From: Pomacea canaliculata
Taxonomy: Eukaryota > Mollusca > Gastropoda > Architaenioglossa > Ampullariidae
Length of the DNA stretch: 64,000 bases
Direction of reading: 5' to 3'
Assembly (NCBI RefSeq): GCF_003073045.1
Contig: NC_037597.1
Span: forward strand, 28,015,927 to 28,079,926
Shown: positions 4,786 through 60,480 of the stretch, in pieces
Layout: the number at the start of each line of letters is the position of its first letter
How positions within the stretch are numbered: the first letter of the stretch is position 1
Notes under the pieces: model-generated
Database searches by the model: none
Told to the model about the DNA's origin: nothing
Seen by the model: the letters and a program-made list of their open reading frames with translations, nothing else
Made by a program: the position numbers and the translations under genes

Positions 4786-23680
<18,895 letters not shown>

Positions 23681-37552: not shown

Positions 37553-37717
37553 GCAATGATCTGGGTTATTTATTCAATTTACTTTCAGATGACAGAGGAG
37601 ATAAAGAAAAGATCTGTGCTGTTAATGTTTAGCAGGAAGTTTTTAATCTTGTAAAGGCTAGTGTTTTAAGTATTGTTGTGGATGAGGACTCAGCGGGGTC
37701 GCAAGGAAAAGTCAGTT

Positions 37718-40533
37718 TTACTGAGGACAACCCTCCTCTTCTCCATCCAACACCCAGCGGAGACCAGAGTAGCAGTGGGCCTTGTCGATCTTGGTCTTCA
37801 GCCCCGGGAACTCACGGCAGTCATCAACAGCTTCGGCGAGGGCGTTACAGTTCTTCTTGATGTCCTTAGCTGGTGAGGGAAATCCGCTGCAAGCCCAGTC
37901 CACGCATTTCTGACGATACCAAACAGATCGTTATCACTGGTGTAGTCGTCACATGACATACGTTATAAAAATGACAAGCATTAGTCTCGCAAACTGAAGT
38001 ATTAGAATCTGACAAGAAGCATTGAGAGAATGCAGGAAAAGACAGTCCCAACAAGCTAATCGCACTTACCGTAAAGACTTGCATAGGGTCGTAAGTGTAC
38101 TTAGAGAGACACTGTCTGTGTCCGGCACTGCCCACGGTCCGCCAGCAGAGCGCTACCGCCTCCTCTCGCGCCGTGTCGTTGACACAGCTGTTGATGATGT
38201 AGCCCTGGGCCTCCTCACACAACGGGTTGATGCTGCAGGTGAGGGGACACAATAAGCGGCAGGCTGATCAAGGATATAGCATTAGCTCAGACACACTAAT
38301 CACTCACTACCGGGCGAGCTGCCGGAAACTCACAGATACATTTCAAGCTGGATGAAGGGTACGCACACTTTACGTGCCCAAGGAAACTCTCTCATCAACT
38401 AACGAGAAAATGATGTTTACTGTAACGTTAGTTAAGAATAATCCCAACAATTAAGTGAATTATTAACATTCTAAAGTCTAAACGACTGCATGTCATGTGA
38501 TGAAATTATCGATGACGATAACATGCCATGTACAAAAGACAAGGAGATCGTACTTACGTGTCGTACTGGGTTATAGTCGGATTGGTGAAAACGTCGTAGA
38601 TGACAGCGGCCTCTTCGTCTTTAATGATGCTCATTTTATCCGTTCTTTTTCGGACATAGTTGTTGGTACCGTTACCTGTAACACACACACACACACGTGT
38701 ATCAAGAACAAGTAGTCTTGTGTGAGCACTATCAAATATTCTCTACGCGAGTCCTAGCGGAGAAAACTATTTTCCAATAATTAGTCTAGAGATAAGAAAG
38801 AATGGCTCGTTGGTTCTAGTAACGAAGTGGAAAGCTGCTTCATGAAGGTGGAAAGATAACTCGTTGGCGCTACTCACCACAAAGTTGTTGCGGATAAGGA
38901 ACAAGCTTGACATTAGCGGCGTTACAGATGAACTTCCAGTCAGATGACGACTGTCTGTCGCCGGACACCTCGTACAGGCCGAACTCCAAGGAAAAGACGT
39001 TGTTCTTCTCGGTGACGATGACAGACAGGCCGTCACTGGCGATGCTGACATCGAAAATATCTGCCAGCTCAAGGTCGCCTCCCTTTTTGTTATATGGCTG
39101 ACGATTGGTGCTACCTTGACATTGCATCTCCTTCACGTACTGTAACCACCACATATTATATTAAAACATTATTCTCGTTATTACAGTGGTAGGAGCTTAA
39201 CATCACATTACTTTTATCAGGGCCAACTTTTACGTGGGCGGTGCCTATCTCCTCTCCCTCACTGCCTTACCTCCCCCAGCCCTCGACATTGTCAGGTCAA
39301 CATAGGGAAGTAGGCTGCGTCACGTGAGTATAAATCTGGTTCGAAAGCCGTTGTTCTAAAATCTAGGCTTTCCCAACGCAAACAGGTGCGTTTAGTCGCA
39401 AGGTACCAAACAATCGGCAGAGTACAAGCCTTCTGAAGACAGCCTCGTAATGGAGGCGTGTCCCCCTTTCTTTATTAACATTATACCTCTCACAAACCGA
39501 GCTTCCGACTTGGACAGTTTGTAATAAAACCTTGTAATCCCTGTTGTAATAGGGTTAAACCAACTTGCAAACAAATTCATCATCCACCCTTATTATTTAT
39601 CTGCAGCTCACAAACCTGGCCTGCAATCTTGATGGTCGTACGCCCGTACCAGGCCTTGTCGTCCGACAGTCGAGTCACCCCCAGCCAGGCGGAGTAGGTC
39701 AGATACCGGACACCATTCCAGGCATTACCTGGTGTGAAGGTTATCTGGTAGTCGCCGCACACCTGGTTGCGGATGGCGTTGAATTTGCAAGGAAACTCCA
39801 CTTTCACCTTGTCACCAGAGAACTGGTACAGGTAATGTCCCAGCTCACCGTAGCAGACATACTCTGTCTGACCTGTCATATGACAAAGCACTGATGCAGG
39901 CGAGAGTAGCGACAGTGTTCTCACAATCTACATTTTAGTCTGCATGCATGAGAGAGAACAAGGATGCATGTGATGAGCAAAGCTAAGCGTCCCTGCCAGT
40001 CACGTGCCTCGTCAAAACAAATACAATATTTGTCTCGAGAAAGGTCTCGCAAGAGAAAAAAACAAAAACTAATGTCTGTCTCAGGACAAGATCAGAGTCT
40101 GTCTCATGAAGGTTTGCGCCCAAGAAATGGTTTAAAGTTTCAGCTTCAGGAGTGGGACTAGAGTTTCTAAGGAGAGGTTTAGAGTTTCTTTTTAGTGACG
40201 ACTAAAGTTGCTGTCTCAATTAATCAGGAATTCATTACTCAGAAAAAGAATATAAAGTGTCTGTCTCAAAAAAAAGTCTGGAATATCTGTCTCAAGAAAT
40301 GTCTGGAGCATCTGTATCACGAAAAGGTTTAGCGTGTCCGTCAAATAAAAGGTCTGAGGTTTTCGTTTCAGGAATAAAATTGTGGCATCCCAATAAAGAA
40401 TATGCGGAGCCCGCGTGTCAAGAAAAGGGGCAGAGAATATTGATGTCAGCTCATGGTAGGTGCATGTTGGTGTGTCCAGCTCACCTTCAGCGACCCAAAC
40501 GACCAGCAGGACTAACAGAGACAGGGGCGCCAT
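37718..40533 (-). CDS. secreted protein with VWD-like and C8-like regions, 346 aa
   Basis: Six coding exons with matching phases: 40533-40485, 39872-39616, 39139-38878, 38675-38558, 38232-38070 and 37909-37718. Exon 1 starts MAPLSLLVLLVVWVAEG, a clear signal peptide. Exon 2 has YLYQFSGDKVKVEFPCKF, VCGDYQITFTPGN and YSAWLGVTRLS. Exon 3 has DIFDVSIASDGLSVIVTEKN. Their beta-strand pattern resembles a von Willebrand D domain without the usual GDPH start. Exons 5-6 hold about ten cysteines (CEEAQGYIINSC, ALCWRT, RQCLSKY, KCVDWACSG, DDCREFPG), like the C8 domain that follows VWD. The protein probably works outside the cell. I do not recognise the family, and its function is unknown. A TATA box and an untranslated first exon lie upstream, suggesting strong, tissue-restricted expression. 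Confidence 0.82.
40010..40440. repeat. degenerate tandem repeat of about 28-33 bp in intron 1 of the VWD/C8-like gene
   Basis: More than ten diverged units with the core gtctgtctcaagaaa and ggtctgga/ggtttaga. Units are clearest between 40255 and 40400. No protein is encoded. Confidence 0.65.
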
Positions 40534-40855
40534 CTCGAGTCACCTGTAACCACGGGAGTTCTGTTAACCACTGCGGGACTCTTGGCACTAGTTGAGAGAT
40601 CACAAAGTAAGGTCGTCTAACTTTATCGGACATTACTAATAACAGATTTCGCATTCACCCCATCACTGAAACCTGACGCGCATAACGATAGAAAAAAACA
40701 AAAAACAAAAAAAAAAAAACGACGATACTTGAAAAATGCAAGTGTTTGTTAGCTGACTGGAAAATTGAGAGAGATGCAGAATTTAACAGGCACCATGCAG
40801 TTTCTCATTATGGTCACCGTCGGTTTTCGTGGCTAAGATAACGAACAATACTCAC

Positions 40856-48071: not shown

Positions 48072-51000
48072 ATGTCTCTTCTAGTGCTTGGTATGCTGAG
48101 CCTTCTGGCGAGAATGGCGGAAGCAGCTCCTTCTCCTGAAGACACTGTGGTGAGCATGGTCAGAGAGAAGGATCCTTTTTGTTCAGCAGAGGTGATAACT
48201 CAACTGGCGAAGAAGATCGAGGAACTGCAGGTGAAGAGAGACAGGCCATACGTTTTCCCAATCATATGGGAGCAGGATAGGGGGCTATACCCAAGCGAGG
48301 TCAGGGTGAACTTTGTGGGCTCCCCTGTCATGTCAACGGCTCGGGACCTGCTGTCCGTTTTCGACAACAACATGTTTGCCTCGGCTTGGATCACAATCGC
48401 CCTGCTGGAGGGCCACCACTACGCCAGCGCTCCGCGACCCGGGGACCAACAACTGGCGCTCACCTTAGACGCCATCGCCGAGTATCATGACAAGAATCGC
48501 AACTACTCCAACTCTGTCATGACTTTCTGGCCGCAAGCGTTCAATGATACTTTCCAAAATTGGCAGAGCATGCCAGAAAATCTGCTCAAGGCCTTCGGGC
48601 TCTTCGACGTGGTGCCAGCAAAGGTGGTGGAAGAGATTATGAAGCTGTTGGGTCTGGAAAGCCTCGAGCATTTTATGGAGTCCATTCTTTCCATGGAGTA
48701 AGTTTTTTTTTTTTTAAAAAACATTATATTTCTTTTTATTTTCATTGTTCTCTAGTTGATCAACTTGTCCACTAAAATAATTTCTCCTTCCATCCCCTGA
48801 TTACAGAGTTGGACTCAGTACAAGGTAAAGTATTACCCCCTACCCCACATCCTACTTTGAGAATCTGATAGCTTTCCTTTCTTTCCTTTCGCAATTTCGA
48901 CATCGTTTACCTGCTTATGATGACGGTCTGTCTACACAGTCATACAGATACTGTGTATCGAGGGCACCCACCACATTGTCGTCTTCTTCACCCCAATGCG
49001 TTTCTGATCATACGGCAAATGTTACTGTAGGAAACGCTCATCTCCATCTCGCTTCCCGAGTATAATTGCCCACCGAGATAGAGTTGGTCATTGTCATTGT
49101 TCTTGAGTTCTCTTGGTATCCTATGTTAGAATTATGTAACCGTTCTCGGAAAAAATACCACTGTTTCTGTTCAACGTGCACGTTATGTCAGTCAGTACAC
49201 TTTGTAGAACTAAGATACCGCAAATCTTTGTCACATGACACCATTGTTGAAGGGATTCTTTCAAGCGCGCCTTTCACATCCCACCTGACTTCGACGACAC
49301 TTTCGTCAACATCGGCCTGGGAGCCCTGCTGACGGAATTGGCTTCAGACTTTCCTGACGCAGCGTCACGATGGCGTTCCGGTAACTCCAACCTGTCGTCA
49401 GCACTAGAAGCTTTACGCCAGTATGCCTACCGGCCATTTTCCAACGACTCTAACGTCAACTCCATCGATCCCCGCACCTACTACTACATACGCCATTTCC
49501 TGTCTGAAGCCCACGGGCGAGGGGAAGACATCGCCTTGGTGCCGACATGGGTAAGTTAATACTAATCATGAAAGTCCGTGCTTTAATAATCTCATGTTGT
49601 GTCACTTTGTTACAACAGAGAGAAAGAGAACAATGGTAGATAAGCATATACTGAAGAGAAGAGATGGTATTAATTGAATGATATACATGCATGTGACTGA
49701 AGACATAAAATAATGCATGTGCTCTGATTTCTCCAAGATTACGTCTGCTGACAAGCACATTGTATTTACATGGTTTTGGTCGAGTACTGGGCACATGTTT
49801 TGGTGTGAGACTGAACAGGTGTTGTGGTCTTGTACATAGTTCACACCTTGGTCTGCTGTTGACCAGATGTTTCAGTCTTGGACATGCAAGCTGGCAAACA
49901 AGTCATATGTTGCAGGTGCAGAACCTCCAAGACGCGAAGGATGGATATAAGCGTGGCGTGGCAATGCCTTTTGAGATCAACAACGTTGACGTTACAGTTT
50001 CTGCCAACGTTGTCAACGGACTCACTACTGCAGTTCTGAGTGGCCTTCTGCCGGCAGACTCGCTGGATGAACCTCTCCTGAAGGTGAATAAGTGCACAAA
50101 ACTCTGTAAATGATGTGTCACCGGCATTTGCTAGTGGTATGCAGTAAGTCACCAGGATATTCAGGTGAGGCTTTAGGAAATAATGGTGGTCTTTGGGTCA
50201 CCGGGAGCCCACCTATAACGTGTCCAGTAAATATTCCAGATAAAACAATACAACTGCATTTGTTTCAGAGGGATGTTAAAAAGCAGCTGATATTACTATA
50301 ATCAATTGATATGTTTATAGTTCAGTTCAAGTATCAGCTCTTCTAGCACACTGGCGTTGGGGAACGCGACATATTTGGGAGTGGCTTTAATTATTAACAG
50401 CCACGCAGCAGCCACGCATTTCTGTCTATAACTGCAAATATAGAAAGAAAACTCAGTGCCGCATTAATGTTATATGCAATATAAGCCACTCATAGGATTT
50501 TGATCAAGAAGTGTACATGTGGAATTGTAAATCCGTAATCTGACGATAAAGAGAAGAGTTTCGTCAATTGCTTGGGGCATCAGTCGGCTTGGACTGCTGT
50601 GGCCTGCTCCTCCTGGTTCAACCGGTAGACTCGGTTGTTGAATGAGTTGGGGAGGTACAGGCAGCAAGGTACAGGAGATGAGATAGGCACGAGGAAAACG
50701 GGATTTCGAGCGCCTAGTTCTCAGACGACTGAAAGATTTGGGGAGTAATTTTACCATCTTTAATCTTCTATATATAGTAACCATAGAATTCCATCAGCGA
50801 TTTCAAATATAAAATTGTAAACCCTGTGTCTTGAGTGTAGCAAGTCTACGTCAACACGACAGCCATGATCGTCGCTCAGATCTCTGACCACCTGCAGGAG
50901 CGACCGGACCTTGAGCTGACCTACTATCCCTCCGCATTCGAGTTCTACTGGTTTGTCGCCCGCACTCTCTCCGTCATGGAGACGGCTATGCTTAACAGGA

Positions 51001-53349
51001 CATTGCCTCCCGTGAGTTCAGCTCATCAGTCACTACCGATCTGCTAAAAATAATGCGCGACTACAAGTTCGCCTACACATAAGGTGTAACGTGATTTTCT
51101 CTATAGTCCAGAGGGCTTTGTGGCACTTATTTGAAAGATCAACCAATGATCGATAAGAGATGTTGGTGCAGGCGATGCAGGAGGTGTACCCGCTGCTGAA
51201 GGCTGCGCTGGAGACCAGCATGACACAGGACGTCATCGCCAAGGCTCAGCAGGAAGGGGAGGAAATGATCTTCTTTGACGACTTCCTGGGCGACGGAGAT
51301 GTGGATAGTCATAACAGAAGCGTGGTAAGGACCGCCCGGCATTTGCCCTCCTGCATGTGTTTTGACATGGCAAGCTACTAGCAGATGCTTACTTTAGACA
51401 CTGACAGCGCGCTTGTGTGTGTGTGTTAGTGTGTCGGTGTGTTTGTGGTAGGGGGTAACGTGGGGTAGAATACTGGGTTAACGTGTTGTTTTCGTGACCA
51501 GGTCCACGCCGAAGACCGCCTCTTCACTACCGCCATGGCCATCAACGCTTTGGTGACGACATGGACGACATTCGACGCCGCCAAAAGAACCGTTAGTTGG
51601 AAACAATGTGGGTAGTAGTTTCTCCAGCTCAGAGGTTTTATCTTTGTGTGCCTATTGTGTATCATTTAGGACTAGGGCTCACGTTTTCTTTCAGTCAGTC
51701 AGGTATCTTCACGATGACTTTCCCTTCTCGCTGTACGTGTCTCCTCCTTACATACATGCGCACAGACACTCGAACACAAAAGCATACGCGTACATTTGAC
51801 ACGAGTGTGAGTGTGACAAGGGCGGTCAGCAGTTGTTTCAGTATCGGGATCAGATGACTGACGTATATGTCACAGATGTCACAGCAGAGGTGCAGGACGT
51901 GGTGCACAAGTCTGCTCGATGGCTGAACGCCAACATCCTGAAGGGTACCTATAAACCCAACAATGTGTTCTTCTCTGGCTCTTTCAAGGGCAATTCAGTA
52001 AGTCCGCTCCTTCAGATATTACAGAAAGTAGACAGCCTCGGCCATCTGGGAAATGAATTAGTTTAATTACCCTGTAATATCAGACAGTAAAACGTTGGTT
52101 AAAACATAGCACAGTACTTTTGTACAAAACAGTACTTTTAACACAATACTTTTGTGTAACGAAGTGTAAGACTGATACACAGAAGAGATTTAATCAGTGT
52201 CGACATCTGATGTAGCCAGCTATCATTAACCTGTCTTCCTTATCGTCATTGGTACCCTGAGGTATCGTGGGGAGGTGACGGCTCGGTGCGAGGGCTTGGT
52301 GACAAGTGAGAGCGTCTTTGCCACGCCCCCTAACAAATGTCTGTGAGACCGTCTTCTTTTTTTTTTGAGAGTACGATCTGAATGCTGGCTGGTCAGCTAG
52401 AATGCTGGTGTAGTGGCCGAGCCACTTGACTCTCCGCTGTTAGCGCTTTGAGTCCACCGTCACCTCTCTGAAGTTTTCGTTTCTTATCCTTCCTTTCTGT
52501 CATTGCCACCCATCTCGTCACGGTTACTGTTATCTTTTAGGACCTTTGTCTGGCACTGGTCAGGGTAACAAAACTGTTTTTATTATCCCAGTCTTTGATT
52601 TTTTGGGGAAGGGTGGGGTGTCTGAGGAAGGGCGGGTAGTAGCTGACATTGTTTGAAGTTTGGATTCGGGTCTCTATGTTTCCTGCGCAAAAAGTGAGCG
52701 ACGAGCTATTGATGCTGATATACGATCATTAATGAAAAGCCTAAATGCTCCAGGTAGCACATGGCAGTCAAAGTGCATAGCACGTCATCATAACAGCTAA
52801 ACTGCTAATATTTTGTTACTTCTTTCTAGCTTCTAGCGATGACTGTGCCTCACGCCTCCCCCTTCGTAAGATGAAGTACGTGTAGGCGGACGATTATTTC
52901 TGCACCCTGTAGTCCAGTCGTGTACCGCGACAGTCAGCCTGTGACACAGTGGGCAAAGTGTGTTAAGTGTGGACCACTGATTTTACACCATATCATCGCC
53001 AACTAGGGTGAGTCGTTGTAGCAAGCTGCCTAAAGCCATTTTTTTCTGTCCTCACCAGACGATTCCCTTCTTCTACCCATGTAACCGCGTCGAATACCTG
53101 AACGGTACCCGGATAGACCCGCGACAACAGTCCCTCCCGACACCCCCGTTCATCTGCAGCATGCAGGGCCTGGTGCCAGAGACCGATTACCAGGCGATGA
53201 TCGACCAGAAACACTTTGGCTTCAACACACCTACTCACTTCACCACCTTCAACGACCCCAACAGCTACTTTCCCTTCTGGTCCTCGCCCGCCTACACCTA
53301 CGCTACATCCATGCTGGCTTTGGCGCGCGCTGGCCTTGTCGCCTGCTAG
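48072..53349 (+). CDS. secreted helical protein with a DxDD motif, alpha/alpha-toroid-like, 646 aa
   Basis: Family not recognised. Eight exons with matching phases: 48072-48697, 49253-49550, 49916-50083, 50841-51011, 51172-51324, 51502-51591, 51854-51997 and 53059-53349. The start MSLLVLGMLSLLARMAEA is a signal peptide. About seven N-glycosylation sequons (for example NYS, NDT, NLS, NTT, NRT, NGT) fit secretion. The chain is mostly amphipathic helices. Residues 219-228 read PPDFDDTFVN, followed by IGLGALLTEL, like the DxDDTA motif and following helix of class II terpene cyclases. Related helix starts recur: VDVTVSANVVNGL, TTAMAINALVTTW, DVTAEVQDVVHKSARWL and TYATSMLALARAG. That pattern suggests a toroid of paired helices, also seen in complement thioester domains. 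Catalysis is unproven. Exon 1 lacks conserved cysteines and the C-terminal exon has three. Confidence 0.85.
52412..52462 (+). repeat. possible tRNA-like SINE head in intron 7 of the DxDD gene
   Basis: tagtggccgag and gctttgagtcc are spaced like A and B boxes of a tRNA-Ser-like promoter. The sequence does not fold as a full tRNA by eye. Weak support. Confidence 0.25.
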
Positions 53350-53687: not shown

Positions 53688-53940
53688 TTTGGTGTACTAC
53701 GTCACGCAAACAGTGTACTACGTCACGTTAGTGCACCATTCACAGCACTGCCTGCAGTCAACACCAAATAGAGAACGTGGATGTGAAAACTGCTACTGTA
53801 GCTCGAGAAATGCAGACTTTCAATAATCCAAACTGTCGCTCATTCTCTCTCTGTTTGGTGTTGACCGCTGGCAACTTTGTGAATGGTGCACTAGTGTGAC
53901 GTAGTACACTGTTAACGTGACGTAATACACCATTACCAGC
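53688..53940. mobile_element. foldback MITE with long terminal inverted repeats
   Basis: The left arm begins tggtgtactacgtcacg and the right arm ends gacgtaatacacca. Each arm also has an inner cagtgtactacgtcac and gtgcaccattcaca, giving about 80 bp of inverted repeat around a short centre. ttac occurs at both outer edges and may be the target duplication. There is no coding capacity, and the superfamily is uncertain. Confidence 0.65.
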
Positions 53941-55917: not shown

Positions 55918-57026
55918 ATGCTGACGTGTTTCTCCGTCGACCCTAACCCTGCTTACCCTCTGCACGTGAAAACTAGAATCCCCGTGCCACGCTACTTCCC
56001 TGTCGACTCGCTGAGCCAGTCTGCGGCGGCGAGACAAAGAGACCAGGTATGAGTACATGACGTCAAGGCTATAAATATCTTCAGATTTTACCGACTCCAG
56101 GACATTAGTTTATCTGGGACCTTGCACACCTCATTGCGTTTGTACCTGCTGTGTACCTGTATTTTTCTTTTCCTCATTTGAAATATTAGATGGGGTACAG
56201 TGGTGGCATCTTTGTGCAGTATTCCTTTAAACATAAAATGACAGTCTGCTTGAGTAATGGAAGACTTCAGGGAGAACCGCACGTGCAACAAAGCAACGCA
56301 GTACACGTGCACTTGGGGTAGGGTGGCAGGGGGCACATGGAGGATACAGTCCCGCTATGGCAGGAGGACGGTGGCAGTGGCGTAGGAACCAGGGGGGCAG
56401 CGGGGGCAGCCCCCCAAAGGAAAATACAGGGGGGGCAGGAATATCCTTTTGCCCCCCCAATATTTGAGACGTAATTCCTCACAAAGAGCAAAGAACAGAA
56501 GAAAGGTAGGGAAACGTAGAGAGGAGACGGTCATCACCGTGCGAGTGCGAACGCCGTTCACTGTCAGCAGGGAGTTTGCCCCCCCCACCCCCAACGCCGA
56601 ACATCTTCCTACGCCACTGCATTACTGATCATTACCCATAATTTGTCACCAAGAGGCTAGCAGGGTGGGAGTACGGAAAAGAAGGTAATAAAAAAAAAAA
56701 AAAAAAAAAAAAAGGTGTGTTGGGGACGGGATCTGATCTCACGGCTACCGACAACTTATAACTTCAAAGAAAGTCCTTTCCTTGTTGTCCTAACGATGGC
56801 GCCGTCAAATATACTCGGTTTAGAAAAAATCCCGAGACTAAGCTAAACATTTGTGTTTGTCTCACCTACTGGTTGCTAAAGAAAGGAAAGGGTGCTGTAC
56901 TTTGAAACATTGTCTGACGGGAAAACAGTTCCAGTCTTGACCCTGGCAGTTCCCCTTCTTCTCAGATTTTATCTCATCGAATGTCTCGCTTCAACAAAGG
57001 CTTCATGACCAGCCGGCCAATTTCCG
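55918..57026 (+). CDS. possible two-exon 5' end of an unknown gene
   Basis: Exon A (55918-56046) reads MLTCFSVDPNPAYPLHV, then RIPVPRYFPVDSLSQS, and ends cag|gtatgag. Exon B (56950-57026) follows ctggcag and reads FPFFSDFISSNVSLQQRL and ends ccg|gtaagt. Both junctions are good and the phases agree (0 into 0). No later exon joins convincingly, no family is recognised, and the stretch is short. It may be an N-terminal piece of a gene that continues beyond the window, or chance. Confidence 0.3.
56043..56374 (+). repeat. direct duplication, copy 1
   Basis: About 330 bp, starting ccaggtatgagtacatgacg. It is nearly identical to 60145-60480 and in the same orientation. Its right end coincides with the start of a MITE. 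Confidence 0.9.
56375..56619. mobile_element. MITE with cagtggcgtagg ends
   Basis: The left end cagtggcgtaggaac and right end cttcctacgccactg are inverted repeats. The inside is G/C-run-rich (ggggggcag, gcccccccaa). No target duplication is evident. A 3' half of a related copy is at 59411-59495. Confidence 0.65.
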
Positions 57027-59410: not shown

Positions 59411-59495
59411 TGTGCGAGTGCGAACGCCGTTCACTGTCAGCGGGGAGTTTGCCCCTCCCCCCCCCCCCTACGCCGAACATCTTCCTACGCCACTG
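59411..59495. mobile_element. 3' end of a MITE related to 56375-56619
   Basis: Shares gtgcgagtgcgaacgccgtt, cactgtcagc and the terminal cttcctacgccactg with the 56.4-kb element. The other end is missing. Confidence 0.7.
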
Positions 59496-60144: not shown

Positions 60145-60480
60145 CCAGGTATGAGTACATGACGTCAAGGCTATAAATATCTTCAGACTTTACCAACTCC
60201 AGGACATTAGTTTATCTGGGACCTTGCACACCTCATTGCGTGCGTACCTGCTGTGTACCTGTATTTTTCTTTTCCTCATTTGAAATATTAGATGGGGTAC
60301 AGTGGTGGCATCTTTGTGCAGTATTCCTTTAAACATAAAATGGAAGTTAGTCTGCTTGAGTAATGGAAGACTTCAGGGAGAACCGCACGTGCAACAAAGC
60401 AACGCAGTACACGTGCACTTGGGGTAGGGTGGCAGGGGGCACATGGAGGATACAGTCCCGCTATGGCAGGAGGACGGTGG
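60145..60480 (+). repeat. direct duplication, copy 2
   Basis: Partner of 56043-56374, differing by a few substitutions and short indels. It lacks the MITE at its right end and continues with unrelated sequence. Confidence 0.9.

Follow-up and report, generated by a model that had tools for sequence, protein, structure and literature searches.

A Pomacea canaliculata gene for a probably secreted protein with a conserved PPDFDDT block belongs to an uncharacterized family

Introduction

The class II terpene cyclases that are known work in the cytosol or on its membranes, and their squalene/oxidosqualene branch is defined by QW repeats. Secreted alpha/alpha toroids of animals include the thioester domains of the alpha-2-macroglobulin/complement family and the cobalamin carriers, and among carbohydrate-active enzymes, secreted proteins commonly have pockets rich in aromatic and acidic residues. 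Here, we analyze a gene of the snail Pomacea canaliculata, located in a 64,000-nucleotide stretch of DNA (the window) that covers C8:28015927-28079926, for which a sequence-only reading had proposed kinship with the class II terpene cyclases. We find that it encodes a member of an uncharacterized family, two full members of which were found in the snail genome.

Results

The window gene lies on the forward strand at 48072-53349. It is intact, with eight exons in consistent phase, GT donors, and AG acceptors; a degenerate copy of one exon lies beyond it:

48072..48697, + strand, exon 1: signal-like N-terminus and SVFDNNMFA block; residues 1-208 plus two bases of codon 209
49253..49550, + strand, exon 2: contains FHIPPDFDDTFVN, its DxDD falling at 221-224, as well as SIDPRTYYYIR
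49916..50083, + strand, exon 3: NNVD-x-TV-x-AN, putative helix start
50841..51011, + strand, exon 4: FEFYWFVART block
51172..51324, + strand, exon 5: FDDFLGD-x-DVDS acidic block
51502..51607, + strand, exon 6: AEDRLFTTAMA, putative helix start
51876..51997, + strand, exon 7
53059..53349, + strand, exon 8: NDPN and FWSSP-x-YTYA block, ending at the stop codon
54957..55049, + strand, decayed additional copy of exon 7, located downstream of the gene and ~3 kb from the original; 74% identical in DNA and, over 36 residues, 50% identical in protein

When exon 2 begins at the acceptor at 49253, the frame stays open, and with the alternative acceptor at 49266, it is broken. The eight-exon structure and its phases had already been claimed from the sequence alone, and they are borne out by the spliced open frame and by the introns of a paralogue. 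The translation comprises 644 residues plus the stop codon, rather than the 646 residues first given, and PPDFDDTFVN falls at residues 219-228, just where it had been placed.

A whole-genome protein search, which scored the best candidates only, so that more diverged members may exist, identified one other full copy in the P. canaliculata genome, at C8:20698163-20702802, 7.4 Mb from the window gene. This paralogue has nine exons and encodes 638 residues. Since all seven of the seven introns of the window gene recur in it in the same alignment column and phase, the gene model is independently confirmed; the one extra intron of the paralogue falls inside the region equivalent to exon 1 of the window gene. 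The two proteins are 52% identical (326/622 aligned residues), and the pair evolves under purifying selection, with a dN of 0.41 and a dS of 2.04 (Nei-Gojobori), the resulting dN/dS of ~0.2 being approximate because dS is near saturation. Weak matches on contigs 12, 11, and 14 (E 1.8-3.2, whole genome) were all rejected as further paralogues: on contigs 11 and 14 the match is to a single reading frame, nearly the same in both places and probably a mobile element, and on contig 12 it covers ~50 residues.

The window protein opens with a hydrophobic segment, closed by AEA-APS, that resembles a signal peptide. Both paralogues begin with hydrophobic residues, in support of the signal peptide proposed earlier, and the gene product is, judging from these features, probably secreted. 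The many N-glycosylation sequons that had been reported were also found, with nine in the window protein, for which 2,000 shuffles average 4.5 (P 0.026), and eight in the paralogue. Cysteines are scarce, the window protein having only four.

Several other features were seen in the window. An inverted repeat with 85-nt arms (53690-53774 and 53848-53932, 86% complementary, 73 nt spacer) lies ~350 bases past the stop codon and, spanning 53690-53932, looks like a small non-autonomous transposon. Further downstream, a ~335-base duplication (56043-56374 and 60145-60480) has copies 4.1 kb apart that are 97-100% identical, and a short dispersed repeat occurs at 56539-56619 and 59412-59495; an apparent reverse-complement copy of the latter, noted by eye, adjoins the paralogue (locus L013, around 6480-6580). 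Retrotransposon reading frames occupy 8851-11428 on the reverse strand, among which the frame at 9401-11428 matches RVT_1 (E 3.6e-29) and an endonuclease (E 1.7e-7). Two forward-strand exons at 7938-8366 and 19713-19967 match Methyltransf_28 (E 6.5e-16 and 1.4e-8) and belong to what we take to be the complex I assembly factor NDUFAF7, while a reverse-strand exon at 24729-25061 matches B9-C2 (E 4.3e-38), a ciliary B9-domain protein. A second multi-exon gene, which has a signal-like start and an apparently secreted product, lies on the reverse strand at ~37700-40540; three candidate exons gave no significant Pfam match, the match of one of them (DUF6512, E 0.042) falling short of the cut-off.

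We then compared the paralogues residue by residue. The longest run identical between them is FHIPPDFDDTFVN, 13 residues, so that the motif is conserved, albeit in one paralogue only; retention of DxDD among homologues had been set beforehand as a test, and it is kept in the single paralogue found. Other identical runs are AEDRLFTTAMA, SIDPRTYYYIR, FEFYWFVART, SVFDNNMFA, ALVPTWVQ, LNGTRID, and FDDFLGD. The length of the 13-residue run is by itself only suggestive, because, when the identity pattern was shuffled 3,000 times, a run of at least 13 arose in 5.5% of cases (P 0.055, at 52% identity). Conservation between the paralogues is highest for tryptophan (10/11, 0.91), followed by proline (0.80) and tyrosine (0.75), and falls to 0.28 for serine and 0/3 for cysteine.

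These data bear on the reading in which DxDD is structural, as a helix cap or a metal site, in an unrelated fold, its likeness to cyclases being due to chance. DxDD alone is weak evidence, because it turns up in 13% of 3,000 shuffled versions of the window protein and in 21% of those of the paralogue. The longer motif, retained in the paralogue, appears to be stronger evidence, with DxDDT in 0.7% and PDxDDT in none of the window-protein shuffles. Moreover, a scan for the degenerate pattern [ILVMF]PPDFDDT gave at least 120 loci, including at least 107 bacterial reading frames no shorter than 60 residues, with no relative of the snail proteins among the loci listed (best prokaryotic frame among them 10.0 bits on the family profile, E 0.065 in that set), so the block also occurs in unrelated bacterial proteins. 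Most of the bacterial frames listed, however, contain virtually the same peptide, RRWLSVS-x-VPPDFDDT, with many coming from Amycolatopsis and its relatives, and this peptide may be a conserved gene read in a non-coding frame. Also against this chance reading stands the identity of the full 13-residue block in two copies that have diverged at half their sites, and we regard this reading as rather unlikely.

Searches for the family outside animals ran without a known positive, so that an empty result shows little. No relative was found among phages and plasmids; 39 pattern stretches in prokaryotic genome contigs, and 2 and 73 in viral contigs, yielded none that was confirmed; and the family profile found nothing in sampled bacterial genomes of four phyla (0/299, 0/294, 0/296, and 0/296; 0/1,185 altogether).

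We next turn to the class II terpene cyclases (SQHop_cyclase_C, PF13243). Their DxDD is present in both snail paralogues, at 221-224 of the window protein. PDxDDT ahead of a hydrophobic stretch is common to the snail protein and the squalene-hopene cyclases that we retrieved (YPDLDDTA and YPDIDDTA); in the window protein, hydrophobic 18-residue windows run from 223 to 246, in agreement with the hydrophobic segment claimed after PPDFDDTFVN. Chain length is similar as well (644 aa in the snail, 664-715 aa in the cyclases). The position of the motif differs: it lies at 221 of 644 in the snail, but at 396 of 664 and 453 of 715 in the cyclases, leaving 420 residues downstream as opposed to 258-264. 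Likewise, the same pattern that detects 6 and 8 QW repeats in two cyclases detects 0 in both snail proteins, and the signal-like N-terminus of the snail protein is unlike class II terpene cyclases.

Up to E 10, no NCBIfam family and no cyclase or prenyltransferase family of Pfam matched either paralogue, HMMER filters discarding most matches above E ~0.1 in these scans. For a profile comparison, bacterial genomes supplied squalene-hopene cyclases along with more distant relatives. Against six cyclase alignments, the two-snail profile gave E 0.20-0.55, no better than the 0.27-0.99 of 12 unrelated ORF decoys. The test has power within the cyclase superfamily, because a control profile of two squalene-hopene cyclases recovered distant relatives at E 7.3e-17. 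SQHop_cyclase_C exons were found elsewhere in the snail genome, on contig 5, in what is presumably the snail lanosterol synthase gene. Literature searches on cyclases in molluscs and animals returned nothing on the snail family, some of them being dominated by nudibranch or general mollusc papers, and the family's motif strings did not occur in the literature searched.

At the sequence level, we therefore reject the proposed kinship with class II terpene cyclases, given that there is neither a family match nor a profile match, that QW repeats are lacking, and that the motif is differently placed. A secreted, cyclase-like toroid enzyme, in which the central aspartate of DxDD would donate a proton to an isoprenoid or another polyene, either extracellularly or within the secretory pathway, is improbable, even though PDxDDT at the start of a hydrophobic stretch is shared and kept in the paralogue; the putative signal peptide, set against the cytosolic or membrane site of known class II cyclases, and the presence of an SQHop_cyclase_C gene on another contig also speak against it. 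Still less probable, in our estimate, is a secreted animal alpha/alpha-toroid enzyme with a DxDDT proton donor, arisen by convergence or from an ancestry beyond the reach of these profiles, that would cyclize or isomerize an isoprenoid-like substrate outside the cell or along the secretory pathway.

Beyond the cyclases, the snail protein had no significant match in Pfam, NCBIfam, PHROG, or PDB sequences. Three marginal candidates were considered and set aside as chance matches. Likeness to acyl carrier proteins was confined to PDB chains at E 0.34 and more with the window protein alone, the two-sequence profile having no PDB match; Lipin_mid, at E 0.051 and 14.1 bits against a cut-off of 26.7 in both paralogues, and GAP1-C, at E 0.24 in one paralogue, were taken as chance.

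Discussion

As it stands, the window gene defines an uncharacterized, probably secreted mollusc protein family, in which the gene is well supported, selection is purifying, and a clear set of residues is conserved. Our best explanation, put forward tentatively, is that the product is a secreted helical protein with a pocket made up of conserved acidic and aromatic residues, which would take a polar ligand or substrate, probably a carbohydrate. The acidic and aromatic blocks are invariant between the paralogues; the fold, the pocket, and the substrate we infer from them.

The protein would be secreted and N-glycosylated, and its chain would be mostly helical, an assignment made by eye and by crude Chou-Fasman smoothing, in which helix and strand calls are mixed. 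FDNNMFA, PPDFDDTFVN, NNVD-x-T, AEDRLFTTAMA, and FWSSP-x-YTYA may then be helix starts facing one central pocket, in the manner of an alpha/alpha toroid; among self-matches of the window protein, no internal repeat stood out, the best score of 37 being reached by 5/100 shuffles. Within such a pocket, the ligand or substrate, polar and most likely a carbohydrate, could be held by the conserved tryptophans and tyrosines and by the acidic residues in DxDDT, FDDFLGD-x-DVDS, and AED, and one aspartate might serve as a general acid or a metal ligand. Our assignments of substrate and catalysis are guesses. If the pocket reading is right, the DxDDT would be independent of that of the class II terpene cyclases.

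The same conserved aromatic residues, together with secretion and the sequons, are also consistent with a non-catalytic secreted binding or storage protein, of toroid or other helical fold, carrying a small molecule much as cobalamin carriers do. PMC6129957 describes several secreted proteins stored in snail eggs, which fits such a role. On the other hand, the acids are kept in tight blocks, a better fit to catalysis or metal binding, and we consider a binding or storage function possible but somewhat doubtful.

Were the protein to prove a toroid with the three aspartates in its cavity, it would be, to our knowledge, the first protein secreted by an animal to have an acid center of the class II cyclase type.

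The helical pocket protein that we favor can be compared with other toroids. Like the thioester domains of the alpha-2-macroglobulin/complement family and the cobalamin carriers, the snail protein appears to be secreted, and it would resemble them as a toroid only if the proposed fold is right. A comparison with thioester families had been suggested at the outset; in the Pfam scan, neither paralogue matched them or the cobalamin carriers, up to E 10, and the paralogues share no cysteine. Of the (alpha/alpha)6 glycosidases, GH92, GH88, and GH127 likewise had no Pfam match in the paralogues. The snail profile gave E 0.35, 0.34, and 0.41 against them (6/6, 4/4, and 6/7 proteins, respectively), a test without power across toroid families, because the three glycosidase families fail to find each other (E 0.19-0.69; with the cyclases included, six controls span E 0.12-0.69). 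PPDFDDT is present in 1/6 GH92 proteins, from a genome picked by means of that motif, and absent from the other five. What these glycosidases do have in common with the snail family is the presence, in secreted proteins, of conserved blocks rich in acidic and aromatic residues.
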